NCBI GenBank assembly: GCA_035656635.1
Contig: DASRSD010000003.1
Span: forward strand, 1 to 39,001
DNA length: 39,001 bases
From: Pirellulales bacterium
GTDB taxonomy: Bacteria; Planctomycetota; Planctomycetia; Pirellulales; JADZDJ01
Reading direction: 5' to 3'
Position 1 is the first letter of the stretch, and each line of letters starts with the position of its first letter. Shown here piece after piece: positions 2,480 through 39,001 of the stretch. Below the pieces are notes generated by a model, which was not told where the DNA came from, ran no database searches, and saw nothing but the letters and a program-made list of their open reading frames with translations. Both the position numbers and the translations under genes were made by a program.

Positions 2480-2485
2480 TATAAT
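2480..2485 (+). promoter_or_regulatory. Candidate -10 element for the RND efflux operon
   Basis: A consensus TATAAT lies about 120 bp before the adaptor start. No good -35 hexamer is seen at 16-19 bp spacing, so the promoter would need an activator, another sigma factor, or may be a chance match. Confidence 0.3.
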
Positions 2486-2603
2486 CGGAACTGATGTCGA
2501 CGGCGAGCATCGCGTGATGGCAATTCGCAACCTATATCCATAGGTAGGTTTACCGTGTTAAGCCTGGTATTTACGACGTCTTGTGCTGCCTCAAGAACCT
2601 GCT

Positions 2604-3920
2604 ATGTCTGGAACTATTGGCAATTACCCGTTTGCGCCGCCGTTACGTGCAGCCGTCGCTGTTTTTCTCTACAGCGCGCTGGCGTGCTTCGCGCTGCTGG
2701 TGAGCGGTTGCGAAGAAGAGCACACAGCCGCATCGACCGCAGAAAAGCCGGCGCTGGTGCGAGTGCAGCAGCCGGTGACGAAATCCGTCACCGATTACGA
2801 GTATTTTACCGGCCGCAGCCAAGCCCCCTATTCGCTTGACGTGCGCTGCAAAGTGAATGGTTATTTGGTCCGCTGGAACTACGATGCCAAGAGCGATCAG
2901 CTCCCGCTGAAGGATTTTAATTTCGTCGTTGGCCAGGAAGTGAAGCGCGACCAAGTGCTGTTCAAAATCGATCCCCGCCCTTACCAGGCAACTTACGATC
3001 AGGCGGTCGCTCAAGTGAATTTGGCTAAGGCCCAATTGCAATTGGCCCAGGCTGATTATTCCAGGGCGTTAGTTGTTTCCAAAACGCCCGGCGCCATTAG
3101 CGCGCAAGATGTCGATAAATACTTAGCCGCCCAATCTAAAGCGGAAGCCGAAGTGGCGGCGCAACAAGCCAGTGCTGAATCCGCCCTGTTGAATTTGCAA
3201 TTCACCGACGTGAAAACCGACATCGAGGGCATCGTCAGCCGGAACTTGCTGTCGGTGGGCAACCTGGTCGAAGCGAACACGCTGCTGACAACCGTCGTCT
3301 CGCAAGACCCGATGTATGCCTACTTCGACGTCGACGAAATCACGCGGGAGCGAATCGCCACGCTGATGCGCGAAGGAAAGCTGGAATCGGCTCGTGAAGG
3401 GAATAAGTATGCCAAATACCCTGTCGATTTGGGACTGACCGGCGGCGAAACTTATCCGTACACGGCGTATATCGATTTTGTCAACAATCAAATCGATCCC
3501 ACCACAGGCACGCTGCAAGTGCGCGGCATGATTGATAATCCCAAGCCACCGGTCGGTCCACGCGTGTTTGTGCCTGGCATGTTTTTACGGGTGCGGCTGC
3601 CCATTGGCGATGCGCATCCGGCGCTCTTGGTGCCGCAAGCCGCCGTTGGGACGGACCAATCGCAAAAATACGTGTTTGTGGCGAATCAGGAAAATATTGT
3701 CGAATACCGGCCAATTAAAGTCGGCGAGGTGCAAGCCGACAATTTGCAAATAGCTCTCCCGGAACAAATTATGCGCGAAGCCAATGGCATTCGCATCGCC
3801 AAGCCCGATGAAAAGGGCGCCGAACCCAGCCTCACGTCCAGCGACCGCGTAATCGTTGGCGGCCTGCAACGAATTCGTCCAGGAATGAAGGTCGAAATTC
3901 AGCCGCCAGAAGCAAAGTAA
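2604..3920 (+). CDS. RND efflux periplasmic adaptor (membrane fusion lipoprotein, AcrA/MexA-like)
   Basis: This is the periplasmic adaptor that bridges the RND permease encoded next to an outer-membrane channel. From ATG 2604 (438 aa) there is a lipoprotein signal with lipobox V-S-G-C and Cys36 as the lipidation site. Next come a split lipoyl/barrel-sandwich domain, an alpha-helical coiled-coil hairpin at about residues 127-205 (Ala/Gln-rich heptads such as LAKAQLQLAQADYSRA), a beta-barrel domain around 'VVSQDPMYAYFDVDE', and a C-terminal membrane-proximal domain. A GTG at 2583 in the same frame would add seven residues; ATG 2604 gives a more typical signal peptide, though neither has a strong Shine-Dalgarno. 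The permease starts 46 bp downstream, so the two are very likely co-transcribed. Confidence 0.93.
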   Translation: MSGTIGNYPFAPPLRAAVAVFLYSALACFALLVSGCEEEHTAASTAEKPALVRVQQPVTKSVTDYEYFTGRSQAPYSLDVRCKVNGYLVRWNYDAKSDQLPLKDFNFVVGQEVKRDQVLFKIDPRPYQATYDQAVAQVNLAKAQLQLAQADYSRALVVSKTPGAISAQDVDKYLAAQSKAEAEVAAQQASAESALLNLQFTDVKTDIEGIVSRNLLSVGNLVEANTLLTTVVSQDPMYAYFDVDEITRERIATLMREGKLESAREGNKYAKYPVDLGLTGGETYPYTAYIDFVNNQIDPTTGTLQVRGMIDNPKPPVGPRVFVPGMFLRVRLPIGDAHPALLVPQAAVGTDQSQKYVFVANQENIVEYRPIKVGEVQADNLQIALPEQIMREANGIRIAKPDEKGAEPSLTSSDRVIVGGLQRIRPGMKVEIQPPEAK

Positions 3921-3966
3921 TTGCCACGGATTGAACTTCTAAACTCACGGCCCGCATTGCCCGTCC

Positions 3967-9658: not shown

Positions 9659-9679
9659 TCATTCCTCCCTGAATTTACG

Positions 9680-9699
9680 GCTTTTGCTGCAACAAAAGC
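9680..9699 (-). promoter_or_regulatory. Hairpin in the leader of the minus-strand outer-membrane efflux gene
   Basis: GCTTTTG and CAAAAGC (7 bp) flank a CTGCAA loop, 22 nt upstream of the NodT start, within the 197-bp divergent gap shared with ndh. It could affect expression as an operator or mRNA structure, but nothing else identifies it. Confidence 0.25.
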
Positions 9700-9855
9700 T
9701 TCAACCGGCGCGCAGCCGCGCGGCGGTTCCTTCTGCGTTATCGGAGAACTTTACGCCACAGGAACAGTCAAACTGTTAAGAAATTCCGGCGTAGTTTGCC
9801 TAAGCTGCCTGCTCGCGGCTTCCCAAGCAGCAATGCGGGGAGATAATAGCCCGGC

Positions 9856-11169
9856 ATGGATGCAACACATCAAGTGGTGGTGATCGGCGGCGGGTTCGGC
9901 GGGTTCAACGTGGTCCACAGGCTTCGCAAAGCGCCTGTGCAAATCACGTTGATTGACCGTCGCAATTTCCACCTCTTTCAGCCGCTGCTATATCAAGTGG
10001 CCACCGGCGGGTTATCGCCGGCCAATATTGCCGCGCCGCTGCGCGATCTGTTTCGCAAGCAGGTCAACGCTGAAGTGCTGCTGGGCGAAGTGGTGGAAAT
10101 TGACGCTGCTGCAAAGAAAATCATCCTCCGAGACGGTGCTTTGCCCTACGACACACTCGTCGTGGCCACCGGTGTCAGCCACCAATATTTCGGCCACGAC
10201 AATTGGGAACCGTTTGCGCCGGGCTTGAAAACGATCGAGGATGCTACCGCCATCCGCCGTCGAGTGCTTACGGCGTTTGAAGAAGCCGAGCGAGAGACCG
10301 ATCCGGCCCGAGTTCGCGCTTGGCTTACATTTGTAATTGTTGGCGGCGGAGCAACTGGGGTGGAATTGGCCGGCACGCTGCGCGAGTTGGCCTGCGAAAC
10401 ACTGCGCGGCAATTTTCGGCGAATTAACCCGGCCGATGCCGAAGTAATTTTAGTCGAAGCCACCGATCGGGTATTGCCCACATTTGCGCCGCAGTTGTCG
10501 ACTAAGGCGCTGGCATCGTTGGAAAAGTTGGGAGCAATTGTGAAATTGAATCACCGGGTCACTCATGTGCAAGCTGACGGCGTCACGGTGGAAAGTGGCT
10601 CAGCCAACGCGGTTCAAACGGAACACATCGCCACGCGCACAGTGCTATGGGCAGCCGGCGTGCAAGCATCGCCGCTAGGAAAAGCTGTGGCAAAGGCGAC
10701 AGGAGCGCCACTCGATCGGGCCGGCCGGGTAATCGTTCAGCCCGACTGCACCGTGCCGGGCCACCCGGAAATTTTCGTGATCGGCGATTTAGCAAACTTC
10801 ACTGGCGCCGACGGAAAACCTCTTCCAGGCGTGGCCCAAACGGCGATTCAGCAGGGGCGTTATGTGGCAAAATTAATCCGCGCACGGCTGCGGGGCAAAT
10901 GCACGCCGCCGTTTGTGTACCACGATCGCGGCAGTCTGGCCACGATCGGACGACACGCTGCCGTGGCTGATCTGGGTTGGTGCAAGCTCTCTGGCTGGCT
11001 GGCGTGGTGGATTTGGCTGGTTATTCACTTGATGAACATCGTCCAGCATCAAAGCCGGATTCTCGTGCTGATTCAATGGGGCTGGACGTACTTCACACGC
11101 AACCGGGCTGCCCGACTCATTACTGGCGGAGACAAAGGCGCAGATGACCGCCAGTCAAAACAGGGGTGA
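9856..11169 (+). CDS. ndh: Type II NADH:quinone oxidoreductase (NDH-2 family flavoprotein)
   Basis: This is a single-subunit, non-proton-pumping NADH dehydrogenase that passes electrons to quinone at the inner face of the cytoplasmic membrane. The N-terminal FAD-binding Rossmann motif is VVIGGGFGG (glycines 11-16). A second dinucleotide fold for NADH is FVIVGGGATGVELAG near residues 158-172. The C-terminal FAD contact is IFVIGDLANF, followed by the NDH-2 pattern GVAQTAIQQGRYVAK. The Trp-rich amphipathic segment WLAWWIWLVIHLMN at about 380-393 is the expected membrane anchor. Length (437 aa) fits the family. The start follows a GGGGAG tract at a slightly long spacing. It is divergent from the NodT gene and the two need not be functionally linked. 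Confidence 0.9.
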   Translation: MDATHQVVVIGGGFGGFNVVHRLRKAPVQITLIDRRNFHLFQPLLYQVATGGLSPANIAAPLRDLFRKQVNAEVLLGEVVEIDAAAKKIILRDGALPYDTLVVATGVSHQYFGHDNWEPFAPGLKTIEDATAIRRRVLTAFEEAERETDPARVRAWLTFVIVGGGATGVELAGTLRELACETLRGNFRRINPADAEVILVEATDRVLPTFAPQLSTKALASLEKLGAIVKLNHRVTHVQADGVTVESGSANAVQTEHIATRTVLWAAGVQASPLGKAVAKATGAPLDRAGRVIVQPDCTVPGHPEIFVIGDLANFTGADGKPLPGVAQTAIQQGRYVAKLIRARLRGKCTPPFVYHDRGSLATIGRHAAVADLGWCKLSGWLAWWIWLVIHLMNIVQHQSRILVLIQWGWTYFTRNRAARLITGGDKGADDRQSKQG

Positions 11170-11338
11170 TGGCGTACGAGCGGCGGAGGCGCCAGCGGGG
11201 ATGGCACCGTTTTTTGAAATCACCAACTCCGAATTTGTGGTCGCGCCAGAACCGGCAAGTTGGATTCTCGCCATGCTATCGCTTTGCTGCATGCTGGCAT
11301 GCTTTCTCGGATTCAACGTTCGGTCATCTTTACGCTAG
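11144..11338 (+). CDS. Short ORF with PEP-CTERM-like C-terminus (possible gene remnant)
   Basis: This 64-codon frame starts 26 bp inside the ndh 3' end, with a weak AAAGG before its ATG. Its second half reads VVAPEPASWILAML, then a Cys-rich hydrophobic run (LSLCCMLACFLGF) and a basic end. That is the PEP motif, membrane helix and Arg layout of an exosortase (PEP-CTERM) sorting signal. There is no N-terminal signal peptide and no room for a folded domain. It is therefore either the 3' remnant of a lost PEP-CTERM gene or a tiny coupled protein. The remnant reading seems more likely. Confidence 0.35.
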   Translation: MTASQNRGDGVRAAEAPAGMAPFFEITNSEFVVAPEPASWILAMLSLCCMLACFLGFNVRSSLR

Positions 11339-11474
11339 CGTTAGAAACGGTAGAACCGGAAGAATCGTTAAACTCTACCTGCTTTTCCTGACGAGAATTT
11401 TCTAGCAGCACTTCCGGGGCTTTGCGCGCGAATTGTTCCCGCGCTATGCCCGAGTGCGCTTGGGAGATTCGAAT
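11170..11474. other. Region between ndh and the autotransporter
   Basis: Apart from the short PEP-CTERM-like frame, this 305-bp region shows no gene. No convincing -35/-10 pair for the autotransporter was found. A GGGAG ribosome site lies at 11462-11466. Confidence 0.5.
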
Positions 11475-14400
11475 ATGAGCGGGAAACGATTTCGGGTGGG
11501 GCGTATTTTCGGCCTCGTGGCGTCCATGCTGGCGCTTACCACGACCATTCTCAGCAGCGCGGCAGCCCGCGCGGCCACAGATACGTGGACGGGCGGAGGC
11601 GGAAATGCGCCAAATAACGTTTGGTCCAACGCAACCAATTGGACCGGTGGTGTACCGGCCAACGACGGCAGCGAAGACATTCACTTTGCCGGCGTGCTGC
11701 CATCTTCCCTCACTTCCGACGTGGACTCTGCCTACAACATTAACTCGCTCAATTTTGACAGCGGGGCCGGTGCGTTCGCGCTTATAGACAACCCTTTAAC
11801 TATCCAGGGCGGCGGAGTTGTAAACAACAGCTCGAATACGCAAACCATCAATAATTCTATAGTACTGGGTACTCCACAAACTTGGAATGCAGCGAGCGGC
11901 AACTTAGTTTTCGGCGGCACTACAATTACTGCCGGAGGCAATTTACTGACCATCGATGGCGCGCAGAACACCAACATCAGCGGAGCCATTACAGGAACCG
12001 CAGGAATTACTAAAAATGGGACCGGCACATTACTTCTGAGCGGCAACAATAGCGGCGAGTCAGGACCCGTGATCATTACCGCGGGTACGATTCAGGCAGG
12101 AAGCAATACTTCTTTGCCCGATGTCAACTATACCTTGAGCGGCGGCTCGCTCGATCTGAACAATTTTAACGCTACCATTACTTCGCTAAGCGGGGCCAGC
12201 GCTAGTTCCACTGTCAATTTGGAATCGACCAGTACATTGACCGACACCACCAGTGGCTCCGACACCTATGCTGGCACCATTACCAGCAGCGGCGGCACGT
12301 TTGTATTGAACGGCACCGGCACGCTCACTTTGGGCAATGCCAACAACCAAAATACATTCGGCAGCGGAAACATCGATGTTTTGCAGGGCACATTACAATC
12401 TGGAGCGACCGGTTCGTTACCGACGGCCAATTATGAGGTCAATGGCATACTTGCCGTAAATAACGGATCCGTCACTGCGCTTGCCCTGACGGGGTCGAAC
12501 AGCGGTCAAATTACCTTGGGCACCGGCTCGCTGACGATCGCTAACCCGGGAACTTCAACATACAGTGGAACGGTTAACGGCGGCGCAGGATCGGCCATTA
12601 ACATGTTTTCCGGAAACCAAGAGCTCGCCGGCGCCATTTCAGGCGCAACGGCCGTGAATGCCAATGGCGGCACGTTGATCTTGAGTGGAACAAACACGTT
12701 CACGGGCGGCACCAACTTGAACACCGGCGGCACGGTTTCGGTCTCAACCGACGCCAACCTCGGCAACAATGGCAGCGCCGTCAACTTCCTCGGCGGCACG
12801 CTGGAAGTTACCGGTACCACGCTGACGAATTTGGACAACCATACGATCAACGCTACGGCATTCAACGGCGGTTTCCAAATCGACGACGCTAGCAACAATT
12901 TCACCGTCAACCAAAGCCTTAGTGGGTCGGGAGCGCTTTCAAAATCGGGCGATGGCACATTAGTTCTCACGGGAACCAACACGTATAGCGGTGGTACGAA
13001 CGTGTCCGACGGTACGCTGAAAGGCACTACGGACAGCATCCAAGGGAACATTAACGCCGCCGGCACTGGCATCGTCGCTTTCACGAACACCACCAACGGA
13101 ACTTATTCAGGTGCGATCAGCGGCACGGGGGGCAACGTGGAGATGGACGGCTCCGCCACGGTTACATTCACTGGCAATAACAGCTACACCGGCACGACGA
13201 CTATCAACACGGGAACATTGCAGGTTGGCAATGGTGGAACCACGGGCTCGATTGGGACCGGCGCGGTCATCAATGAAGGCGCCTTGATTTACGACCGCAG
13301 TGATCCGGTCACCGTTGCCAATGCGATTTCCGGCGTTGGTAGCTTCACGCAGAACGGCACCGGCTTATTGAGCCTCGGCGGCACGGACACCTACACCGGC
13401 CCAAGCACTGTGAATGCCGGGCAATTGAACGTTGACGGCAGCACGACCAGCAATAACACAACCGTGGCTTCTGGCGCCACTTTGGGCGGCATTGGCACGA
13501 TCAACGGCAATGTTAGCAACAGTGGAACAATCAGCCCTGGCAACTCCGGCAGCACTGCAAACACCACCGGCACCCTGACCGTCACTGGCGATGTCACCAA
13601 TGCCGTATCAGGCACAAAGATGAATGTGGTTGTGAACGACGCCAATGCTCAAAACGTCAGTAAGCTCGTTGCTAGCGGCAATGTGAGCGTGAATAACGCC
13701 ACGGTGCACGTCGATTTGAGCTCCGGAAATTTCGATAAATCGGGCACCACCGTGTACACGTTCTTAACCGACGGCACAAGAACGGGTTCCTTTGCCAGCG
13801 CCGTCACCACTTCGCAATTTGTGACTGCCACGTTGGATCAAAGCAGTCCGACGGATGTCAGTTTCACATTGACCGCGAACTTCAGCCCGGCAGCTACAAC
13901 GTTCAATCAAACCCAAGTGGCCAATTATCTGAATACGAACGTGGGCAATGTAAACGCTGATTTTCAGGCGCTCATTAACACGCTTTCCGGACTGACCACG
14001 GCGCAGGTTGCCAATGCCCTGACTCAGATCAGCGGCGACATTCATCCGACGATGGCCCAATTGAACGTCAACGGAACATCATTGGTCATCGGCCAGGTAG
14101 CCGCACGCTTGCGGGCCGCCCCATTTGCACCGGGTGGACCACTGGCGGTGGCAGACAACGGCTCGGTAGGCCGCGCCGTGGGAGCTCCCATTGCCTTAGT
14201 TAGCGAAGGGCCGGATGGTGAACCGGAAATGCAAAGTTGCCCTAGCGGGTGCGGCCCACAAGGAACGGCCTGGGGCATGGGCTTCGGGATGGGCGGCAGC
14301 GCCGAATCCGATGGCAATGCCACGGCCGCAAGTTTTGGCATGGGCGGCGTCGTGGCTGGGATGGAACGCTGGGCAGATGATTGCCACCTGTTGGGCTTTT

Positions 14401-27724: not shown

Positions 27725-28186
27725 ATGGAACGCACTTTCGTCATGCTCAAGCCTGATTGTGTGCAGCGCCGTCTGGCCGGCCGAATTCTGGCACGCTTTG
27801 AAGATAAGGGGTTAAACGTCATCGCGCTGAAAATGCTGCGAATTACCCCTGAGCTTTCCAAGCAGCATTATGCCGAACACATCAGCAAGCCCTTTTATCC
27901 GGCGCTGGAAAAATTCATCACCGGCGGCCCGGTGATTGCGGCCGTGGTGGAAGGCTTGGAAGCCATCCGCGTGGTGCGTGACATGCTCGGGCCCACCAGC
28001 GGCCTGAAGGCTCCGGCCGGCACGATTCGGGGCGATTTCAGTTCCAGCCGCCAAATGAATTTGGTCCATGCGTCCGATGGCCCGGAAGCCGCTCAGCGTG
28101 AAATTGGCATCTACTTCAAAGATGCCGAACTCCACTCCTACATGCCCACCATCACTCCCTGGATGAAAGCCGGCGACGAAGGCTAA
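27725..28186 (+). CDS. ndk: Nucleoside-diphosphate kinase
   Basis: This enzyme transfers the gamma-phosphate from ATP to nucleoside diphosphates through a phospho-histidine, balancing NTP and dNTP pools in the cytoplasm. The protein is 153 aa, normal for the family. It begins MERTFVMLKPDCVQRRLAG, has the ATP-site motif GPTSGLKAPAGTIRGDF, and the active-site His is in NLVHASDGPE. ATG 27725 is chosen over upstream frame starts because it gives the standard N-terminus. It has its own candidate promoter and lies 129 bp before comM. Confidence 0.97.
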   Translation: MERTFVMLKPDCVQRRLAGRILARFEDKGLNVIALKMLRITPELSKQHYAEHISKPFYPALEKFITGGPVIAAVVEGLEAIRVVRDMLGPTSGLKAPAGTIRGDFSSSRQMNLVHASDGPEAAQREIGIYFKDAELHSYMPTITPWMKAGDEG

Positions 28187-28315: not shown

Positions 28316-29854
28316 ATGCTCGCGAAGTTGCATACGTTTTCGTTGTTGGGCATCGATGCCTTGCCGGTGGAAGTGGAAGTCGATGTCTCGCCCGGCGCGC
28401 TGCCGAAAACCATTCTTGTTGGCCTGCCCGAAGCGGCCGTTAAAGAAAGCACGCATCGGGTGGAACGGGCCATGGTGAACAGCGGCTTCATGCGGCCGCA
28501 AGATAAAATAGTCATCAACTTGGCACCGGCCGAGCTGCCCAAAAATGCCGCTTCGTTCGATCTGCCCATTTCGTTGGGAATTTTGGCCGGCAGCGGGCAG
28601 TTGCAATCTGACCTTTTCAAAAAGTATGCCGTCGTCGGCGAACTGGCGTTGGATGGCGTTACGCGCGGCACGAAAGGGGCGCTTTCCATGGCGATGGCTG
28701 CTGCACAACAAAACGGCTTGCGCGGCATTGTTGTGCCCGCCGAAAGCGCGTCCGAAGCCGCCGTGGTGGAAAACATCGAAGTCATTCCCGTTTCCAGCCT
28801 GGCTCAGGCTGCGGCGTTTTTTGCCGGCTCGATTGAAATTGAACCCACTCCGCCGCGCCTGGACGAATGGTTCCAGCAATACGCTGCCTACGAGCTAGAT
28901 TTTGCCGATGTGCGCGGGCAAGAAATGGCCAAACGCGCGATGACCATTGCCGCCGCCGGCGGGCATAACCTCCTGATGCTGGGTCCGCCGGGTTCCGGCA
29001 AAACGATGCTCGCCAAGCGCGTGCCCACCATTTTGCCGCAGCTTACCGCCGCGGAATCGATCGAAACCACGCGCATTTACAGCGTCATGGGCTTATTGAA
29101 ACCGAATCAGCCGCTGTTGGCCACACGGCCGCATCGCGCGCCGCATCATACCATTAGCAACGCCGGGTTAGTCGGCGGCGGCACGGTTCCCACGCCGGGC
29201 GAAATTTCGCTCTCCCACAACGGCGTTTTGTTTCTTGACGAGTTGCCGGAATTCAATCGCCAAACGTTGGAAGTGCTGCGCCAACCGCTGGAGGATGGCA
29301 ACGTTACCATTAGCCGCGCTCTGAACAGCACCACCTTCCCGGCCAACTTCATGCTGATTGCCGCGCTGAATCCGTGCCCCTGTGGTTACCGGAACGATCC
29401 GCGCCGCGATTGTCACTGCAGCGTGCCGCAAATCGAACGCTACATGAATAAAATCTCAGGCCCATTGCTCGACCGCATTGATATTCACATTGAGGTGCCG
29501 GCCGTGGCATACAAAGAACTTTCCTCCGCCGTGCCAGGCAGCACCAGCGCCGACATGCGCCAGCAAGTAACCGCCGCTCGGCAGATGCAGCAGCGCCGCT
29601 TCAAAGGCAGCGCTACCCGCCAGAATGTCCACATGAGCCACCGCCAAATTCGCGAGCATTGCCGCCTGGACGATGCTGGCGCCAATCTGCTGCGCACCAC
29701 GATGATGGAACTTGGCCTTTCGGCTCGCGCCCACGACAAGGTGCTGCGTGTTTCCCGCACCATTGCCGATCTTGAGGGAAGCGCGCAAATCACCGCGACT
29801 CATCTTTCCGAAGCCGTCAACTATCGCATGCTAGATCGCCAATTGTGGACGTAA
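28316..29854 (+). CDS. comM: YifB/ComM family Mg-chelatase-like AAA+ ATPase
   Basis: This 512-aa AAA+ protein is of the ComM family, whose characterised members are helicases promoting branch migration when incoming DNA is integrated during natural transformation. The N-terminal Lon-like domain (LPVEVEVDVSPGALPKTILVGLPEAAVKES, abbreviated start of the family) precedes the AAA core: Walker A GPPGSGKT (223-230), HHTISNAGLVGGG, Walker B GVLFLDELPEF, and the Cys-rich loop NPCPCGYRNDPRRDCHC. The C-terminal Mg-chelatase domain includes SARAHDKVLRVSRTIADL. It appears full-length. A second, diverged copy of its last 37 codons lies 545 bp downstream. Confidence 0.95.
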   Translation: MLAKLHTFSLLGIDALPVEVEVDVSPGALPKTILVGLPEAAVKESTHRVERAMVNSGFMRPQDKIVINLAPAELPKNAASFDLPISLGILAGSGQLQSDLFKKYAVVGELALDGVTRGTKGALSMAMAAAQQNGLRGIVVPAESASEAAVVENIEVIPVSSLAQAAAFFAGSIEIEPTPPRLDEWFQQYAAYELDFADVRGQEMAKRAMTIAAAGGHNLLMLGPPGSGKTMLAKRVPTILPQLTAAESIETTRIYSVMGLLKPNQPLLATRPHRAPHHTISNAGLVGGGTVPTPGEISLSHNGVLFLDELPEFNRQTLEVLRQPLEDGNVTISRALNSTTFPANFMLIAALNPCPCGYRNDPRRDCHCSVPQIERYMNKISGPLLDRIDIHIEVPAVAYKELSSAVPGSTSADMRQQVTAARQMQQRRFKGSATRQNVHMSHRQIREHCRLDDAGANLLRTTMMELGLSARAHDKVLRVSRTIADLEGSAQITATHLSEAVNYRMLDRQLWT

Positions 29855-29986
29855 TTCGACGAATCGCGAGATGCAGCTATACTGACGCAAAGTTTTGCAT
29901 TGGCCTGGACATCCAAAGCTAGGCGTGCCATTGAGTTTTGAAGTTAGACCACCCAACAGGCAATCTATAGAACCAGGAGATCGACA

Positions 29987-30238
29987 ATGCTGTTTCACAT
30001 CACGCAAACACACTCCCCCGAGCTGTGCCCCAAAGATGACGGCGGCTCGAAAACTCTTTATAACCCGAAGGCCGAAGGCGTAAAGCTGCTGGCCATTTAC
30101 GGGGCATTTCCCGAGCACGTCATCTACTACATTGTCGAGGCGGAGAAAATTGAAGCGGTGGAAGCCTTTCTGATGCCCGGCTTCAAACGCTGCACCAGCA
30201 AAATCACGCCGGTGAGTAAATCGCCAATTGTGAATTAA
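29987..30238 (+). CDS. Small conserved-looking protein, possible ferredoxin-fold (DUF3303-like)
   Basis: This is an 83-aa protein with a good ribosome site (AGGAG about 10 nt before the ATG). It starts MLFHITQTHSPELCPKDDGG and contains AIYGAFPEHVIYYIVEAEK, then EAVEAFLMPGFKRCTSKITPV. The alternating strand-helix pattern and the 'MLF..T..H..E.CP' opening recall small ferredoxin-like-fold proteins of the DUF3303 type; that is recalled family resemblance, not a search result. It sits alone between intact comM and the comM 3' remnant, so it may be cargo of whatever rearranged this locus. Confidence 0.7.
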   Translation: MLFHITQTHSPELCPKDDGGSKTLYNPKAEGVKLLAIYGAFPEHVIYYIVEAEKIEAVEAFLMPGFKRCTSKITPVSKSPIVN

Positions 30239-30285
30239 GAACGCTCAACGAGCAGTTCGGTTCGCACGCGGGTACTCATCGCCAA

Positions 30286-30396
30286 GTGCTGCGCGTCTTC
30301 CGCACCATTGCCGATTTAGCAGGCAGCGACGCCATCACGCCCACGCACCTTTCCGAAGCAGTGAATCACCGCACGCTCGACCGCCAACCGTGGACG
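30286..30396 (+). pseudogene. Diverged second copy of the comM 3' end (37 codons)
   Basis: This stretch aligns without gaps to the last 37 sense codons of comM (29741-29851). By hand count 83 of 111 bases and 29 of 37 residues match (VLRVFRTIADLAGS against VLRVSRTIADLEGS; THLSEAVN identical). The comM stop TAA is CAA here, and the frame runs on a few codons to TGA at 30428. Similarity fades just upstream of 30286. Twelve codons differ only synonymously, so the copy diverged mostly under selection. It is better seen as a remnant of a second comM allele or homologue than a recent duplication decaying at random. Confidence 0.8.
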
Positions 30397-30418
30397 CAAT
30401 TGAGCCTTGGAGCAACCA

Positions 30419-31294
30419 ATGAAAGCAATTGATATTCATTCATTATCAATCTCGCAAATTCCTACCTTTGAAGATGAAATGTTCGAATTCAAAAGTAGCT
30501 TGATGAATCCAGATGAATTCAAGCAGGAGCTAGATCGTGCTGCGTCGGGATTCTCAAACTCAGGTGGAGGGTGCATTGTCTGGGGACTAGATAACAAAAC
30601 CGGGATGGCAGATGGCGGCGTCGGAAAGACTATTGGCCGACAGTGTGTAAAAGAATGGGTAGATCAAATAGTTCACAAGGTACAGCCCGCGCCCAAATGT
30701 AAAACACATTTGTTCACTGACGTCGAAGGAAGAGGGAGGGTAAACGATAGCAATGCAATTATCGCAGTGTCGTTTGCTGAAAGTTCTTTTCCCCCGCATA
30801 TGGCATCGGACTGCCACTATTACATTCGGGCTGGCAGGCACACAGTTCCTGCACAGCACTTCATTGTTGAAGCGTTATGGTCTAAGAGGTATACGACCGT
30901 GCCCAAAATTGTGCACGTGGTCCGCATCAATCCACATGCATTGGGTCAATTACAAATTGGATTAGTGGCGGTCACAGATTCTCCAGCACTGGATGTGGAA
31001 GTTATGATTGAGCCATTGAAGGGAATGCTCCATGGTCTGGAAACAGATTTTCCGCTACACGTTCCAGTCATTGATCAATCAAATCCATTTTACATGGATA
31101 TTAGTTATCGCTGCACCACTCCATGTGACGAGTTGACCGATGATGTTCACATTAACGTGAAGTATCACGATCTTGCCGGGAACGAATATTCTTACCGCAA
31201 TGAAGCTCCGTTAAACAAGGGCCTTCCATCCTTGTACCTTGCAGATGATCCCGCCGAAAAAATAGTTCGGGCGATAGAAGGTTTAAAACATTAA
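30419..31294 (+). CDS. AlbA_2 / Schlafen-like domain protein, AT-rich
   Basis: This 291-aa protein has an N-terminal AlbA_2 (Schlafen-like, divergent AAA_4) domain: EDEMFEFKSSLMNPDEFKQE, then LDRAASGFSNSGGGCIVWGL with its conserved Asn and Gly run, and later HYYIRAGRHTVPA. This domain occurs in putative DNA-binding regulators and in defence-associated proteins; the C-terminal half is not recognised. ATG 30419 follows GGAG by 6 nt; an in-frame TTG at 30407 is less likely. The gene is clearly AT-richer than its neighbours (the line at 30421-30480 is 30% GC by count), it follows the comM remnant directly, and it ends in its own terminator. All this suggests horizontal acquisition. Confidence 0.8.
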   Translation: MKAIDIHSLSISQIPTFEDEMFEFKSSLMNPDEFKQELDRAASGFSNSGGGCIVWGLDNKTGMADGGVGKTIGRQCVKEWVDQIVHKVQPAPKCKTHLFTDVEGRGRVNDSNAIIAVSFAESSFPPHMASDCHYYIRAGRHTVPAQHFIVEALWSKRYTTVPKIVHVVRINPHALGQLQIGLVAVTDSPALDVEVMIEPLKGMLHGLETDFPLHVPVIDQSNPFYMDISYRCTTPCDELTDDVHINVKYHDLAGNEYSYRNEAPLNKGLPSLYLADDPAEKIVRAIEGLKH

Positions 31295-31301
31295 GCCGAG
31301 T

Positions 31302-31331
31302 AAGTGACGCATTTCGTGCGTGACACTTTTT
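31302..31331 (+). terminator. Intrinsic terminator of the AlbA_2 gene
   Basis: AAGTG-ACGCA pairs with TGCGT-(GA bulge)-CACTT around a TTTCG loop, giving ten base pairs, and a run of five T ends at 31331. It starts 8 bp after the AlbA_2 stop. Confidence 0.65.
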
Positions 31332-31395
31332 GCTCGCAAGCAGCGGTTGCAAATCAAGAATGCCCAACGGCGGGAACGGCCCAATCCGTCTTTTT

Positions 31396-32433
31396 TTAGC
31401 GGCGTTTTTTCTTTACGGCCCATAAGGCAGGAATCGCCAAGACCAGTAAGGCCAGAGAAGCAGGCTCAGGCACCGGCGCCACGCTGCCGCCGCCAGAGAG
31501 CAGCTTATTGAGCAGGGCCTGAACATCGAGATTGTTGAACACGCCGTCTCCATTGACATCGCCAATTAAGCCCATGTCGGAGGTAGTGTAATTTGGGTTG
31601 CTGTTAAAGTACGTGGTCTGGTACAGCGTGGGATTGGTTAGCGCTAACTCCATGGCCGCAATATCGGTGGAATCTACGTGTCCGTCGTTGTTCATATCTC
31701 CCGGCGTATACAGGCGGGCATTGTCGAAATAGAACGTGTTGTGCAGCGAATCGGAATTGGTTGCAAAAATTAATTCTGCATAGGAATTGGAGGTAAACAG
31801 CGACAGGTAAGAACTGTAGTCCACCGCCAGCGTGTAAGTGAAGTCTGAGGTAGGGCCAGCACCGTAGAACACGTTTGTGCTTTTTCCGCCAATGCTCGAC
31901 ACCGGATTGCCTCCGATGGAAGTAAAACTGTTGTTGACAACGGTCCCCGGGCCGTTGAGCCCGATATCATAAATCTGCTGAAATCCACTGGTTTGATTTT
32001 GTGCTGCGTAAGTGACGTCGATGGCAAATGCCCGATCGTTGAAGAAATCGTTCTTGGCGTTGTTGCCGCTTAAGTCCGTGGCATACTCCAGCTTGATCGC
32101 CAGGTTTTGATCGTATCCGGAAAAAGACAATCCTAAGCTTTGAGAGCCTAATGTTGCTCCAATAGTGCTCGCGCTATACACGGGACTGCTGCCAATGGTG
32201 GGCGATCCATTCAAGCCCGGCAGCGTGGTTCCTGCTGGGCCACCAGCGTATCCGCTGTTGGAGCCCCAATCGAGCCAGGAATCTGTATTTGTGAAAGTAT
32301 TGCCACCGTCCGTGGCCTGCTCCCAATTTCCAATCACCGCTAATTGTGCCTGGACGGCTTGGGCAGAAAAAAGAAATGTTAGAACAAGAAGTAATGCGGT
32401 GGCCCCACGACAAAAGCAAGCTGAGCGTGACAT
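31396..32433 (-). CDS. Secreted PEP-CTERM protein with type I dockerin
   Basis: This is a 345-aa exported protein. A signal peptide (ATALLLVLTFLFSAQAVQA) is followed by a beta-rich, Ser/Asn/Gly-rich domain ending in DSLHNTFYFDNARLYTPG, which resembles a jelly-roll or carbohydrate-binding-like module. A type I dockerin with two calcium-loop repeats comes next (DMNNDGHVDSTDI near 246 and DVNGDGVFNNLDV near 292). The C-terminal sorting tail is VPEPASLALLVLAIPALW plus KKKRR. PEP-CTERM proteins are cut by an exosortase; none is encoded in this window. ATG 32433 follows AGAGG by 6 nt. The function of dockerins outside cellulosomes in planctomycetes is not settled. Confidence 0.9.
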   Translation of the reverse strand: MSRSACFCRGATALLLVLTFLFSAQAVQAQLAVIGNWEQATDGGNTFTNTDSWLDWGSNSGYAGGPAGTTLPGLNGSPTIGSSPVYSASTIGATLGSQSLGLSFSGYDQNLAIKLEYATDLSGNNAKNDFFNDRAFAIDVTYAAQNQTSGFQQIYDIGLNGPGTVVNNSFTSIGGNPVSSIGGKSTNVFYGAGPTSDFTYTLAVDYSSYLSLFTSNSYAELIFATNSDSLHNTFYFDNARLYTPGDMNNDGHVDSTDIAAMELALTNPTLYQTTYFNSNPNYTTSDMGLIGDVNGDGVFNNLDVQALLNKLLSGGGSVAPVPEPASLALLVLAIPALWAVKKKRR

Positions 32434-32603
32434 ACTGTTCCTCTCTTGATATGTCAGTTCCCCCTAATTCAGCAAAATACAACTTAAAACGGCGTGCGTC
32501 GTTGCGCAGCAACCCGATGGCTTTTTTACTTGCCGTTCAAAATGAACCGACTATTCCGCAGGGCATGTTGCAGTCATGCCGCTGCGAACGAATTGATTAT
32601 TCC

Positions 32604-33338
32604 TCAGGCAACATTCCGTCGCCGCTTGGCAATCAACCCGAGTGCGGCCATTCCCAGTCCGGCCAACACAATCGTGGCGGGTTCGGGAACCGCGCTCAGA
32701 GTGAAATTGTCGAAATAGATATCGGAGGGTGCACCACCTCCGTTGTTGGTCTGGAATTCTAACTGGATGAAGCCGGGACTTGCCGAGATGGCAGCCTTAT
32801 AGGCGTCGTAATTGATCGACACCGTGTTAACTTGTCCATTGTAGGGAGGGTTCTGGTTGACGGTACCGGTGACAGTCACCCCAGCGAAGGTGCCTCCGCC
32901 TGAGCCGCCGACGTTATGAAAACCTGCGCCTGGGGCATTGAAAATAATGTTAAACAACTGCGAAAATCCGCTGCCGGTAGCGCTGGGTGGGACTTCCCAG
33001 GAGAAGGTAAGGATGTCGTTGGCCAGAAACTGGGAAGCCAGACCGTTGGTCACAAAATCGTAGGCGAGGTCGGCGCCACTGCTGAGACCGCCGTTGAAAC
33101 CGGAGGCAGTTAGGTCAAGCACTTTGGTAAGGTCGCTGCCGCTGCCGGGTGTAATGACGGCGCCGGCGGTCGGGCTGGCAAAAGTGTTAGCTGTCACACC
33201 GGAGTTGGTGCCGGTGCCGAAGCCGTCCGTTAATCCGTCTTCAAAATTACCGAAGACAACTTGTGCCTGACTAACTTTGGCCAAGCCCAACGAAACCACG
33301 ACACATACAAACGCCATCAATCGGTGCTGCGTAGACAT
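32604..33338 (-). CDS. Secreted PEP-CTERM protein
   Basis: This is a 244-aa exported protein with signal RLMAFVCVVVSLGLAKVSQA, a single beta-rich domain, and the sorting tail VPEPATIVLAGLGMAALGLI followed by AKRRRNVA. The C-terminal part of the domain (YFDNFTLSAVPEP) is built like that of the neighbouring dockerin protein (YFDNARLYTPGD), and both carry SGFSQLFNI or SGFQQIYDI, so the two are probably diverged paralogues of one fold. ATG 33338 has a strong ribosome site (GGAGGA, 8 nt spacing). It lies 170 bp upstream of the dockerin gene on the same strand. Confidence 0.88.
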   Translation of the reverse strand: MSTQHRLMAFVCVVVSLGLAKVSQAQVVFGNFEDGLTDGFGTGTNSGVTANTFASPTAGAVITPGSGSDLTKVLDLTASGFNGGLSSGADLAYDFVTNGLASQFLANDILTFSWEVPPSATGSGFSQLFNIIFNAPGAGFHNVGGSGGGTFAGVTVTGTVNQNPPYNGQVNTVSINYDAYKAAISASPGFIQLEFQTNNGGGAPSDIYFDNFTLSAVPEPATIVLAGLGMAALGLIAKRRRNVA

Positions 33339-33785
33339 AAGCCTTTCCTCCAGGATAAGAATGCGGGATGTTCAGCCGCCGGAACGCTGATCACTGGTTC
33401 TCCCCCGGCGAACTCCGCTGGAACGACATCCTCAACGGCTGCGAATAGATAACTTCGCAATCGTTGGCCACTTCTTGTCCCGTAATTGCGATTATGGCAC
33501 GGCCCAAAGCCGATTGCAATCATTTTGTGATAAATATGACATTTTTTTTGAAATCCTTCACCATGCCCGATCGCTGCACGATTTGCGATTCTCCCCTGTT
33601 ATTTCCCCCAGCGCGTGGCTCCGGTTTTTGAGCCGTTTGCCTACGACCTAATTTATGGGGCATGGCGGGCCGCTGTATCCCACCAGACACCCGGCAGCCT
33701 GTGTAGCCCGTTCGCCCAACGGGATGCATCGGGCCATGCCAGAACTGGGTTTGTGAGTCCGCTTCAGCAGCGAGCCTGAGCGGGC

Positions 33786-33833
33786 TTTGGAAAAATTTTT
33801 TCCCTACTGCATGTATTTGGAAAGATTTTTCCC
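33786..33833. repeat. AT-rich direct repeat of near-palindromic units
   Basis: TTTGGAAAAATTTTTTCCC (33786-33804) recurs as TTTGGAAAGATTTTTCCC (33816-33833), a 30-bp period. Each unit is itself nearly palindromic (GGAAAAA/TTTTTTCC), so the pair may bind a protein cooperatively. It sits just after a hairpin at about 33762-33783 (CCGCTTCAG/CTGAGCGG). Confidence 0.5.
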
Positions 33834-34162
33834 CATTTTTGGGCCACCCGTTTGTTATGCTGCGCACAGTACATGAAGGATTGAATGTATGATCTCCGTG
33901 TTCGACTGCTCGATGGGTAGAAGCACGGCGAACAGCGGCTAGCGATCTGCGACCTGCCGACAAGGCCCTTGCATGCTGGTTGGCGGGTTGCCAATTGCTA
34001 GTGGCTAATTGCCGCTCTTCACGGTTAACCTAGGAACTGGCCCATGACAACAGGCTTACAAGCTGAGATGGTTGCTCAGTCACTGTTACATCGGAACGGG
34101 ACCGAAACGATGTAGCGCCTGCAGTGCGTGCCTTTGCGGAGTTGGTCCTCCGGTAAAACAGT

Positions 34163-34254
34163 AGTGGCCGGTGATCTGTGGACAGTGGTCAGTTAGCCCG
34201 GTCATTGTCCGGGAGTTTTCCACACTGCTCACTGACTACCGATCACCGACCACT
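34163..34254. repeat. Imperfect inverted repeat with 31-bp arms
   Basis: The arm 34163-34193 (begins AGTGGCCGGTGATCTG) matches the reverse complement of 34224-34254 at 25 of 31 positions. A 30-nt loop holds a CCCGG/CCGGG hairpin. As RNA it would form a long stem. The arms are built from repeated CAGTGGTCAGT-like words, and the unit may be a dispersed intergenic repeat. Confidence 0.55.
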
Positions 34255-35048
34255 GCGCAAGTTCGTCGGCCCGACAAGGGCGCCTCTGCCTGCGATTCGC
34301 CGTTGCAACGGACCGTCGCATGGAGAAAACGAGCGCCGGGGTCGTGACAGGCCGATCGGTAACACGGTCGTTTTAATGGGCGGTTAGGCATTCCGCACGC
34401 CGATCGATCGGGAGCGTGAGTCGTAGTTCGTTGTCAGTAGTTACAAGTCCGAGGTCAGAGCCGGGCTGCGTGCAGCCTGGCGTTCGCTGCTCACCGTTGG
34501 CTCGGAAAGCAGCAAACGACGGACCCCGCTGGCAATGGGCATACGCCAAACGGCTGCGCTCCACACAATTTGACCAAACCCGCACGACCCCTTGAGGGGC
34601 CGACGACACCGGAAACTTTTTTCCAAGTTTTCTCGATGCCATGCCGCGCGCTGGCGACAAGCGCGGTTATTTGTTGCGCGCTATGCTTGGGCGTCGCAAC
34701 ACAACGCAGAAATGAGCGTGTCAGCGATGAACGGTCTGGAATCACTGCGTATCGAGCTGGCCCGTACAGAAATCTCAGGTCTGCTATCAACTGTCGCGTT
34801 TCGAGCCAGGTGTGTATGCCTGTGCATCACCGTGTTCAAAGAATAAACAGCCGCATGTCATATGCGGTTTCGCTAATTTATCTGGTTAATAAAATCATTG
34901 TTTTTTATTTGTGAAATTTCTGGCCCGCAACGCGGCGGGCATTCCGATTGCGTATGGAGGCTGCTAAGGAACTAGGGGCGGTGCGGTTCCTAAAGCACAT
35001 TACAGGAACTTAGCACCCATGGACGTTTTTTGCGGAAGGAGCTTTGCT

Positions 35049-35408
35049 ATGACACGCAATTTTCTAAACACACGCATGGGATCGTTCGAGCAGTTGGAAA
35101 ATCGAAGCGTTCCAACCTCAGGATTAGTTGGCGGATTGCTGGGAACCTTAGGCAGCGTATATGCGGCCGGAAACTTGGGCGCCAGTGGTCAGGTAAATGC
35201 CGGCGCCGCCGGAGCGAATGTTGGCGCTTACACCAGCGCGGCAGCAAATGCTTCTGCTGCAGGGGCGGATATCGGAGTCAAAGTGAAGATCAACGCCACA
35301 GCCAACTTGACGCTGCCCGGCGTCAACTCGGTGCTAAGCACGGCGACCAATTTGGTCGATGCTGTGTTGGCCGATGCCAACGGCTTGCTCTCTGGAGTGA
35401 ATGTTTAG
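35049..35408 (+). CDS. Small Gly/Ala-rich secreted-type protein with LENR-VP N-terminal motif
   Basis: This 119-aa protein has a strong ribosome site (AAGGAG 7 nt before ATG 35049), so an upstream in-frame ATG at 35019 is not used. The N-terminus MTRNFLNTRMGSFEQLENRS then VP matches the planctomycete 'LExR' leader found at the start of many large extracellular proteins. Here it is followed only by ~95 residues rich in Gly, Ala, Asn and Val (GAAGANVGAYTSAAANASAAGADIG), ending in a helical segment (VLSTATNLVDAVLADANGLL). There is no adhesin or enzyme domain, so it is a miniature of that class. Export is inferred from the motif. A terminator follows at 35474. Confidence 0.7.
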   Translation: MTRNFLNTRMGSFEQLENRSVPTSGLVGGLLGTLGSVYAAGNLGASGQVNAGAAGANVGAYTSAAANASAAGADIGVKVKINATANLTLPGVNSVLSTATNLVDAVLADANGLLSGVNV

Positions 35409-35473
35409 TTTTACTCCGACACAAACGCCGACTGCATCAACTTGATTTCCGAGTAAGCGGGACAGTGATGTTA

Positions 35474-35504
35474 GACGCCGCCTATCGGACCGATGGGCGG
35501 CGTC
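35474..35504 (+). terminator. Terminator after the small secreted-protein gene
   Basis: GACGCCGCC pairs with GGCGGCGTC, and inside it ATCGG pairs with CCGAT, forming a long near-perfect stem 66 bp after the stop. CTTTCGCTTCT follows, a weak T-rich tract. The stem strength makes termination likely. Confidence 0.65.
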
Positions 35505-35655
35505 CTTTCGCTTCTGATTGCTCGGGCGGTAAAGGTTGCCTTTTTGGGCGACGTGCCACAGGTGCAAAATCGGTCTGTCCACCCAATGAGCGCGCGAATT
35601 CCGCCGCCTCAAGCCTCTCTTCAATTCCCTGCCGCCTGAATTTGGCAGGAAAAAG

Positions 35656-35677
35656 CCCTTGCAAAACTGGGCAAGGG
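35656..35677 (-). terminator. Hairpin with T-tract on the minus strand only
   Basis: CCCTTGC (35656-35662) pairs with GCAAGGG (35671-35677). An A-run precedes it on the plus strand, so it reads as hairpin plus CTTTTTCC on the minus strand. No minus-strand gene ends here; it may limit antisense transcription. Confidence 0.4.
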
Positions 35678-35773
35678 AAGTCAACTTAGCAGTTCGCAAT
35701 GGATGGCGACGGATGGTCTGTTGCCGAATGCGGTGTTCACCCACATTCCCTTAAAAACTAGAGGCTTGCGCGC

Positions 35774-38041
35774 ATGGCAGCACCAGAACAGCCTCCTCTT
35801 CGCCGGCGCCCCGACGAGCAGCGCCCGCAACCGCCGGCATCTCGGACCGACAGCGGCGATGTGAATGGAATCAAGCCATACGTTCCCGATGACGCCAAAC
35901 TGCCCGAGTTCACCTGGTCGGCGGTTTTGTTGGGAGCGGTGTTGGGAATTGTGTTCGGAGCCTCGTCGCTGTACCTCGTGTTGAAGGTCGGCATGACGGT
36001 ATCGGCTTCGATTCCAGTGGCTGTGTTGTCGATTACGGTGTTTCGCGGGTTGGCCAAAGTGTTTCGTTTCCGGCCAGCGACCATTTTGGAAAACAACATC
36101 GTTCAAACGACCGGATCGGCTGGCGAATCGATCGCCTTTGGCGTGGGAGTGACCATGCCGGCATTGATGCTGCTGGGGTTCGACATGACCATTGGCCGGG
36201 TGATGGTAGTTTCGATTCTCGGCGGGTTGCTCGGCATTCTGATGATGATTCCACTGCGGCGAGCATTCATTGTCCGCATGCACAAAGAGCTGCTGTATCC
36301 CGAAGGTACTGCTTGCGCTCAGGTTTTGATTTCCGGTGATCAAGGCGGCGCCAGCGGACGGTTGGTGTTCGTGGGCTTTTTCCTGGCGTTCGTGCAAAAG
36401 TTCTTGACAGAAGCGATGAACATCTTGCACGAAACGATAAGCGTGAGCTTCAAAAATAACTTTAATCGGGTAGCCGCGATTTCGACTGACTTGGCTCCTG
36501 AATTGCTGGGCGTGGGATACATTATTGGTATGAAAACCTCGTCGGTGATGATGGCCGGCGCGGTGATTGGCAATTTAGTGATTGTGCCTGCGATTGCTCT
36601 TTTTGGCGACAAGGTTCCCGGCCTGATTGCGCCGGCGGCGAAGCAGATTTCGCAGATGGATCTTGCGGATATTCAAGAAAATTATCTGCGTTACATTGGC
36701 GCCGGCTGCGTCACGGCAGCCGGCATTATTAGTATGTTCCGCACCATGCCCGTGATTGTGCGGTCGGCAATGGCAGGCATGCGTGGCCTCAGCGGCGCCA
36801 AGGGAGGCAGCGGACGAAAGCGGCGCACGGAAAACGATATGTCGCTGATGACGGTGGTCGTCGGCAGCCTGGTATTGTTGGTTGTGCTGGCCGGCATTTT
36901 AATGACCGAAGTGAAACCGTGGGCGGCGGTTTTAGGAGCGGCGCTGGTCTTGGGCTTTGGCTTTTTGTTTGTCACGGTGTCATCACGATTGACGGGCGAA
37001 ATTGGGTCATCGTCCAACCCCATTTCCGGTATGACAGTGGCCACGTTGGCCCTGACGTGCTTGATTTTTGCATCGCTGGGAATGCGCTCGCCCACCGAGG
37101 CGGTGTTGGCGCTTTCGATTGCAGCCGTGGTGTGCATTGCCGCATCGAACGGCGGGACGACCTCGCAAGATTTAAAAACCGGCTATTTGATCGGCGGCAC
37201 GCCCTATTGGCAACAGTGGGCAATCATCGTCGGTTCGCTCACCTCCGCGCTGGTGATTGGAGTAACATTGTTGCTGCTGAACGAACAGGGTACGGTTTAC
37301 ACCACGCAGAATTTGCCGCAGGTGCAGTTGTCGCCGCAACAGTATGATACGCTCAGCACACACGTTACCTACGACAACAAGGATTACCGTGTGTGGTGGG
37401 TCAGACCGGGCGAAAATCCGAATGTTCTGCCCGGCAAATATTACGTCGATCAATATCGTCGTCCGGCAGTGTATGTTGACCCGGCAATCACCGGGCGCCT
37501 TTCCCAACGCGACAACGGCGAAGACGTAAAGTTCAAATTCCCTGCTCCGAAAACAGAAGTGATGGGAATTATCATCAATGGCGTTTTAGGAGGAACCTTA
37601 AATTGGGGATTAGTGTTGATCGGCGTCATGTTGGCTGTTGGAATTGAATTATGCGGCGAATCGTCGCTGGCATTTGCGGTCGGCGTTTATATTCCCATGA
37701 GGTTTACATCACCTATATTTATGGGGGGGCTTTTGGCCTGGTTTACTGGGCGGTGGCGCGTCCGGGGCAAACAGAAGGCTGCTGCGGACGAAGCAACCGC
37801 TTTAGCCGAGGCCGAAACCGGCCCCGGAACGCTGCTTTCCAGCGGTTTGATCGCTGGAGGAACGCTGGCCGGCGTTACCGCGGCTTTCATGGAATTTTCC
37901 CCATGGCTTACAAAGAAACTAGACTATAAAAACTCGGTTACGGGAACCTTTGCCGGTTCGGACTGGTTTGCGGTAATCGTGTTTGCCGTATTGATTGTCG
38001 CTTTGGCAATTGTCGGCATGCGTCGCTCCGACGACGGATAG
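35774..38041 (+). CDS. OPT-family oligopeptide transporter
   Basis: This 755-aa inner-membrane permease belongs to the oligopeptide transporter (OPT) superfamily, which uses proton symport to import small peptides or metal chelates. After a hydrophilic Pro/Arg-rich N-terminus, many membrane segments follow, starting with FTWSAVLLGAVLGIVFGASS. The family motif ENNIVQTTGSAGESIAFGVG is near residue 105, and KELLYPEGTACAQVL is another conserved block. A hydrophilic loop of ~90 residues at about 502-594 (YTTQNLPQVQLSPQQYDTL onward) is larger than expected and probably periplasmic. The S46 peptidase gene begins 47 bp downstream, which supports peptides as substrate. Confidence 0.93.
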   Translation: MAAPEQPPLRRRPDEQRPQPPASRTDSGDVNGIKPYVPDDAKLPEFTWSAVLLGAVLGIVFGASSLYLVLKVGMTVSASIPVAVLSITVFRGLAKVFRFRPATILENNIVQTTGSAGESIAFGVGVTMPALMLLGFDMTIGRVMVVSILGGLLGILMMIPLRRAFIVRMHKELLYPEGTACAQVLISGDQGGASGRLVFVGFFLAFVQKFLTEAMNILHETISVSFKNNFNRVAAISTDLAPELLGVGYIIGMKTSSVMMAGAVIGNLVIVPAIALFGDKVPGLIAPAAKQISQMDLADIQENYLRYIGAGCVTAAGIISMFRTMPVIVRSAMAGMRGLSGAKGGSGRKRRTENDMSLMTVVVGSLVLLVVLAGILMTEVKPWAAVLGAALVLGFGFLFVTVSSRLTGEIGSSSNPISGMTVATLALTCLIFASLGMRSPTEAVLALSIAAVVCIAASNGGTTSQDLKTGYLIGGTPYWQQWAIIVGSLTSALVIGVTLLLLNEQGTVYTTQNLPQVQLSPQQYDTLSTHVTYDNKDYRVWWVRPGENPNVLPGKYYVDQYRRPAVYVDPAITGRLSQRDNGEDVKFKFPAPKTEVMGIIINGVLGGTLNWGLVLIGVMLAVGIELCGESSLAFAVGVYIPMRFTSPIFMGGLLAWFTGRWRVRGKQKAAADEATALAEAETGPGTLLSSGLIAGGTLAGVTAAFMEFSPWLTKKLDYKNSVTGTFAGSDWFAVIVFAVLIVALAIVGMRRSDDG

Positions 38042-38088
38042 GAAACATTCACCCGTTTTACTTACACTTTCTTACTCAGTTCGGCACC

Positions 38089-39001
38089 ATGAACTATTTA
38101 AAACTGCTCGGATTTATTTCGTTAGGTTTGGGAATCGCCATGTCGCGGACATCCACAGCTTTGCATGCTGACGAAGGAATGTGGCTGTTCAGCAATCCGC
38201 CCAAGAAGCTGCTTAAGGAAAAATACAATTTCGAGCCGAGCGAAGAATGGCTGAAAAACGTTCAACAATCTGCCGTGCGGTTCAATAGCGGCGGCAGCGG
38301 CGCGTTTGTGTCGCCCGAGGGATTGGTGATTACGAACCATCACGTCGGGGCCGATGCACTACAAAAGCTGAGCACGCCGGATCGCGATTTAGTGGCCAAA
38401 GGATTTTTAGCCAAAACCCGCGCTGATGAGCTGAAGTGCGTTGATCTGGAGTTAAATGTGTTAGTCAGCACGGAAGACATCACCAAACGGGTGAACGCCG
38501 CGGTAAAATCCGACATGAACGCCGCCGATGCGGAAAAGGCTCGCCGCGGCGTGATGAACACCATTGAAAAAGAATCGCTCGACGCCACCGGTTTGCGTAG
38601 CGATGTCATCACGCTGTATCACGGCGGCGAGTATCATTTGTATCGCTACAAAAAATATACGGACGTGCGGCTGGCATTCGCGCCGGAACAAGCAATTGCT
38701 TTCTTCGGCGGCGACCCAGATAACTTTGAATATCCGCGATTCGATTTGGATATTTGTTTGTTCCATGTGTACGAAAACGGCAAGCCTGTGAAGGTGGAGC
38801 ATTACCTGCCCTGGAGCAAATCGGGGGCTGCAGACGACGAGCTGGTGTTTGTCGCCGGAAATCCTGGCCACACCGATCGACTGGATACCGTGCGGCACTT
38901 GGAGTTTTTGCGAGATCGGAATTATCCCTCTTCGCTGCGCACCATCTATCGCCGCGAAGTTGTGCTCACCGCCTACAGCGAGCGGAGCCTGGAAAACGCT
39001 C
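38089..39001 (+). CDS. S46-family dipeptidyl-peptidase (3' end outside window)
   Basis: This is the first 304 codons of a periplasmic serine peptidase of family S46 (DPP7/DPP11 type), which removes dipeptides from peptide N-termini. A signal peptide (MNYLKLLGFISLGLGIAMS) precedes DEGMWLF, a usual start of the mature enzyme. The His of the triad lies in FVSPEGLVITNHHVG (His84/85), and the acidic member is probably Asp221 in FGGDPDNFEYPRFDLDICLF. The Ser, expected near residue 650, is outside the window. GNPGHTDRLDTV also matches the family. It lies 47 bp after the OPT gene and the two are likely co-transcribed. Confidence 0.93.
   Translation, partial: MNYLKLLGFISLGLGIAMSRTSTALHADEGMWLFSNPPKKLLKEKYNFEPSEEWLKNVQQSAVRFNSGGSGAFVSPEGLVITNHHVGADALQKLSTPDRDLVAKGFLAKTRADELKCVDLELNVLVSTEDITKRVNAAVKSDMNAADAEKARRGVMNTIEKESLDATGLRSDVITLYHGGEYHLYRYKKYTDVRLAFAPEQAIAFFGGDPDNFEYPRFDLDICLFHVYENGKPVKVEHYLPWSKSGAADDELVFVAGNPGHTDRLDTVRHLEFLRDRNYPSSLRTIYRREVVLTAYSERSLENA

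Follow-up and report, generated by a model that had tools for sequence, protein, structure and literature searches.

The comM (yifB) gene of a Pirellulales bacterium (GenBank assembly GCA_035656635.1, contig DASRSD010000003.1) is complete, and a diverged second copy of its 3′ end lies a few hundred nucleotides downstream, beside accessory genes. How did a second gene end come to stand behind an intact gene? We analysed the window, by which we mean the whole stretch of 39,001 nucleotides, together with genomes of the same order. The comM product is a clear member of the TIGR00368 YifB family, scoring 598 bits against a cut-off of 362. The position of ndk upstream of comM is common only to the window genome (G000) and its congener (G001), and we found no conserved comM neighbours beyond ndk in the congener. 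The features of the locus are collected in Table 1.

Table 1. Features of the comM locus and their positions in the window.
Feature	Position	Strand	Evidence or remark
ndk, next gene upstream of comM	27725..28186	+	Second control gene
comM/yifB, complete, 512 aa	28316..29854	+	ORF; ChlI, Mg_chelatase and Mg_chelatase_C domains; TIGR00368 YifB
Resident 3′ end that recurs downstream (last 37 codons and stop)	29741..29856	+	Repeat family D1
Segment from the comM stop to the remnant	29855..30264	+	51% GC; without likeness to the sequence after the remnant
83-aa gene, function unassigned	29987..30238	+	ORF; sub-threshold DUF3303 resemblance (E 0.014)
comM 3′ remnant, 37 codons, stop TAA to CAA	30286..30396	+	Self-comparison and protein search
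AlbA_2 (Schlafen-type) gene	30419..31294	+	SLFN_AlbA_2, PF04326, E 3.7e-11; 45% GC

A first reading of this DNA, made from the sequence only, had described the last 37 codons of comM as repeated without gaps at a spacing of 545 bp and about 75% identity, with the stop codon lost. Self-comparison of the window confirmed this description, aligning 29741–29856 with 30286–30401 over 116 nt without a gap (75% identity, start-to-start spacing 545). The repeated comM codons are 476–512 (29741–29851 versus 30286–30396). Over these 37 codons and the stop, 85 of 114 nucleotides and 29 of 38 residues are identical, the lost stop being counted in, and the differences between resident gene and remnant fall 6, 6 and 17 times on the first, second and third codon positions. 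With the 116-mer slid along the window on either strand, 87 of 116 positions matched at the copy and 50 at the next best place (mean 29.2, s.d. 4.8), which excludes a chance match. Upstream of about 30265–30285 the homology fades, a weak likeness perhaps beginning near 30265. Downstream it ends with the stop codon; beyond that point, what follows one copy is unrelated to what follows the other. A protein search of the whole genome found the remnant again at E 8e-13; the other comM-like matches were weak (E 0.28 or worse), apart from a paralogue of 41% identity on another contig. A distant ComM-like second protein, 41% identical, is encoded in the window genome at C112:13814–15256.

The accessory setting of the remnant was likewise borne out. 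The AlbA_2 gene starts 22 nt past the remnant, with an alternative TTG start at 30407, and GC content is 45% in this gene, 51% in the segment between the copies, 59% in comM and 55% in the window. Both genes are rare. For the 83-aa gene, 1 of 296 genomes of the order gave a match, its own, and a search for a plasmid match found none; the AlbA_2 gene has matches in 2 of 57 relatives, namely its own genome and one weak match. PADLOC returned nothing for either gene. Further downstream, the minus strand of the window encodes a secreted dockerin/PEP-CTERM protein (31396–32433; Pfam) and a second secreted protein with a PEP-CTERM-like tail (32604–33338; read by eye).

The ancestry of the remnant was examined in a tree of its 111 nucleotide columns. 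The resident comM, the remnant and the comM of the congener form one clade against 32 other sequences (support 100/99), and the remnant is certainly a member of this genus-level comM clade. Inside the trio, the best tree makes the resident gene and the remnant sisters, with weak support (97/66). The branching was not settled by these 111 nt: constrained alternative trees fit equally, and all groupings of the three tie at AU p about 0.5–0.6. The residues LAGSDAITPT are common to the remnant and the congener; the resident gene has LEGSAQITAT in their place.

A sister pair of this kind had been named in the sequence-only reading as a sign of plain duplication. In such a history comM, or its 3′ end with the neighbours, was doubled in tandem and the second copy mostly lost. 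The weak pairing leans towards this case without establishing it, and a near-identical 4.58-kb duplication that includes comM, in genome G143, also speaks for it. Three observations point the other way: the two copies are followed by unrelated sequence; the remnant is 75% identical to the resident comM, less than the congener's comM at 79%; and the remnant has far fewer private changes than would be expected of a partial copy evolving neutrally. By site, 13 changes are private to the resident gene, 11 to the remnant and 6 to the congener, and all three differ at 4 sites. A copy that had been neutral since its birth would be expected to carry about 2.5 times the private changes of the gene. The remnant has fewer (p 0.0076, with the rates between the resident gene and the congener as yardstick), a result that depends on the assumed rate (a neutral rate of 0.75 times that of third positions gives p 0.04, and one of half gives 0.23). 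Because its private changes are too few for neutrality since birth, the remnant probably belonged to a functional comM during much of its separate history. The claim that the copy is part of a once-functional comM allele thus gains support from this test, within the limits of its assumptions. A duplicate might also reach this state if a full second copy had worked for a long time before its deletion, and we consider duplication in either form to be unlikely.

A full comM pair, a second sign of duplication named beforehand, does exist in the order, in G143, but it is recent and belongs to a distant genus. At this locus (L085) the 4.58-kb segment with complete comM occurs twice, at 1–4578 and 9172–13748, 9.2 kb apart and 99.98% identical, and is either a recent duplication or an assembly artefact.

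To place the remnant among its relatives, we surveyed 396 genomes of the order, 366 of which have a comM match. The comM scan scored the best 3 candidate places per genome (up to 9 for ndk and 3 for pyrG), and the 85 genomes with two or more comM matches (11 within the set of 57 relatives and 74 others) were viewed in full; scars may be undercounted. At least 11 of the 366 genomes carry, on the same contig, a full comM and a 5′ or 3′ end piece of it, checked at the DNA level. A 3′ piece is present in the window genome and in G022, G227, G237, G257 and G318, and a 5′ piece in G110, G148, G212, G221 and G372. All are direct copies, 0.4–6 kb from the full gene. The count leaves out G097 and G207, where the longer copy runs off the contig or is itself cut, and G215, G217, G338 and G390, where internal comM pieces lie near a full comM. 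The control gene pyrG showed scars in 0 of 381 genomes (best 3 places per genome), and ndk in 0 of 349, with one ambiguous case, G004, whose repeated 3′ part falls within a single open frame. The difference between comM and pyrG has a Fisher p of 0.0004, uncorrected for kinship among the genomes.

The window scar has the same anatomy as the others and, among the 3′ scars, has diverged the most. Inner ends lie at about aa 353, 459, 470, 472, 472 and 493 in the 3′ scars and at aa 29, 36, 44, 72 and 224 in the 5′ scars; of the uncounted scars, that of G207 ends at aa 47 and that of G097 at aa 36, on the very nucleotide where that of G212 ends. A single site-specific breakpoint common to all scars was rejected, as the inner ends vary. 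The outer ends coincide with the start or stop codon in most scars and reach up to about 70 bp beyond it in the rest. Some scars are 95–100% identical to the resident gene and therefore arise without a diverged donor. Between the copies lie accessory genes such as an AbiE pair (G227), a DUF5615 toxin-like gene (G110), Imm50 (G097) and a vWA/PP2C/kinase set (G221). Homologues of the AbiE pair (41–46%) occur within the comM element of G260. In G212 (L076) and G097 (L079), which represent two genera, the 5′ piece breaks off at one shared nucleotide (codon 36, before LPE) and GGCA follows in each; this may be a further attachment site.

That comM is a target of mobile elements, which the sequence-only reading had noted for Acinetobacter, holds in this order too. 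In 11 genomes (G011, G042, G087, G128, G136, G149, G153, G223, G260, G311 and G364) comM is split on one contig by 9–34 kb, giving 12 inserts, two of them in G311; comM pieces at contig ends were left out of this count. A large serine recombinase ORF (Resolvase, Recombinase and Zn ribbon domains) is present in 11 of the 12, mostly at the comM junction. The 9-kb insert of G149 (L063), at the aa-72 attachment core, showed no recombinase in the four ORFs scanned. The single-contig inserts are located near aa 72, 220, 344 and 373–380 of comM. In G311 (L065, L066, L124) a single comM has been entered twice by serine-recombinase elements, near aa 220 and near aa 344, and a TIR-TM defence gene (PADLOC) of the first element adjoins comM.

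Two scars are tied to such attachment cores at the nucleotide level (2 of 11). The 5′ remnant of G372 covers aa 1–224 with an in-frame TAG and ends at the element/comM junction of its congener G311. Past it follow element-end sequence like that of G311, a decayed recombinase C-terminus that is 57% identical to the recombinase of G311, and then an intact comM. This is the only recombinase relic among the scars. In G148, the 5′ remnant ends at the attachment core (about aa 72) of the inserts in G011, G087, G128, G149 and G153. G372 thus holds the full sequence of events, and G148 the boundary. The 3′ piece of G318 starts at about aa 353, a short way from the second insert of G311 (near aa 344) without coinciding with it, and the boundary of the window scar, near aa 472, lies away from the known attachment cores of the relatives' inserts.

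The best explanation that we can offer for the window scar is that it is the debris of a comM gene that was broken or cut into and then restored by recombination, to which we assign a probability of about 0.45. In an ancestor, comM would have been broken or cut into, as elements with large serine recombinases do repeatedly in this order. Incoming DNA with a whole comM of the same genus would then have recombined with the locus and brought back a working gene. If homology was one-sided, inside comM, the other joint would have landed within the old 3′ part, which would place the new segment ahead of the old comM end and its downstream genes. Breakage and restoration in the window genome itself, the choice of the native comM copy and transformation as the route of the donor DNA are our inferences.

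What supports this reading is the excess of scars at comM over pyrG and ndk, the attachment-core ends of the G372 and G148 scars and the low count of private changes in the remnant. At the window itself, a full comM and an end piece are present and both belong to the genus clade, within which their groupings tie. Counting against this reading are the weak sister grouping of resident gene and remnant and the lack of any recombinase or element trace in the intervening or following sequence of the window. When 184 ORFs from the comM inserts were compared with 29855–39001, the sole match fell on the comM remnant itself, and none of 9 recombinases matched this region. Also against it, neither the order nor 11 viral loci with comM 3′ ends yielded an insert with a junction near aa 472, where the remnant starts. 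The ties to attachment cores cover 2 of 11 scars, the neutrality test loses strength at lower assumed neutral rates, and the scars of 95–100% identity needed no diverged donor; these points count against it as well.

Recombination could also have produced the scar with no prior break. Homology to comM on one side and an illegitimate joint on the other (or a circle and a single crossover) would add the 83-aa or the AlbA_2 gene and leave a partial comM behind. Scars that start at many comM positions, outer ends at or near the gene boundary and the small accessory genes between the copies (the AbiE pair, DUF5615, Imm50 and the vWA/PP2C/kinase set) are all consistent with such an event, and events of this type are described in PMC3240628. 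It leaves unexplained, however, the bias towards comM rather than pyrG or ndk and the attachment-core ends of G372 and G148. We regard it as rather improbable. The likeness to the homology-facilitated illegitimate recombination treated in PMC3240628 lies in the homology at one end and the illegitimate other end; here, donor and joints are what we infer.

The sequence-only reading had favoured a different course, the integration of an element or foreign segment at the 3′ end of comM, which gave the gene a replacement end. Spelled out, a site-specific element would have displaced the old end downstream and become smaller afterwards. In favour of this course, the starts of three of the six 3′ scars (G000, G022 and G227) fall within about 9 nt, at the codons ARAHDK, and accessory genes surround the copies. 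The coincidence has a probability of 0.025, computed after it was seen and assuming uniform starts. Against this course, the locus has no integrase, either between the copies or close to them, none of the surveyed genomes has a large element with a comM 3′ end on each side, and none of the 11 viral loci mentioned above is a provirus or viral contig joined at the ARAHDK codons. For the resident comM, a foreign 3′ end was also rejected. A sliding comparison with the congener shows no breakpoint: the last 111 nt of comM hold 23 differences, against a mean of 18.6 (s.d. 3.8), and 17% of windows of comparison are as high. Since the resident 3′ end shows no foreign breakpoint, a replacement end is unsupported. 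Gene order after comM, which was to be compared across relatives for empty sites, differs in the window genome, the congener and a family member, and no empty site is identifiable. The once-working allele, the accessory setting and comM as a target are thus supported, and the 3′-end element with its replacement end, which we consider highly unlikely, is not.

The reading of a comM broken and then restored may extend beyond the window. We tentatively propose, with the odds leaning against it, that comM is lost and regained repeatedly across the order, serine-recombinase elements, some with defence genes, breaking it at several conserved attachment sites and recombination with incoming alleles restoring it. 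If so, accessory and defence genes would often be gained at the joint, and datable comM scars would be left, of which the one in the window would be old. In that case the gene would serve as a switch where transformation and mobile elements contend, and the chromosome would keep the record. Taken alone, the window remnant is an ordinary gene scar.

Parts of this picture are already known. Passages of PMC10083194 report that large serine recombinases favour the comM/yifB (Mg chelatase-like) gene as an insertion target. The inserts of our relatives resemble those elements in carrying such recombinases; unlike them, the window locus has no recombinase, a whole comM and a 3′ end piece only. AbaR/Tn6022-type islands and Tsy also interrupt comM, often with defence genes, and move by Tn7-like transposition with TnsF or by tyrosine recombinases, according to parts of PMC10293859 and PMC11472951. 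Interruption of comM is common to both settings, whereas the relatives studied here carry serine recombinases and the window locus none. Tn7-like genes are absent from inside comM: the window comM is uninterrupted, and the three genes of the locus match no AbaR/Tn6022 family. Breaking comM benefits mobile elements, because transformation can remove them. PMC11472951 proposes that Acinetobacter baumannii can regain an interrupted comM by recombination with DNA of other strains, a recovery inferred from recombination tracts, with no excess over chance. The idea is the same here, and G372 keeps the broken piece, the decayed recombinase and the restored gene together. In the open-licence full-text literature that we searched, we found neither a report of comM scars nor one of comM being broken in this group. 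Scars of the G372 kind, in which broken piece and restored gene both survive, would allow direct counting and dating of comM loss and regain from genomes.

Two further observations concern the distribution of comM sequences. A comM scan of named genomes gave 4 loci, with identities of 68–74% in Planctomycetota and 52% in one MAG filed as Bacillota. Orphan comM fragments, lying off the contig of the intact gene, occur at L106 (G368), L110 (G272) and L111 (G318).
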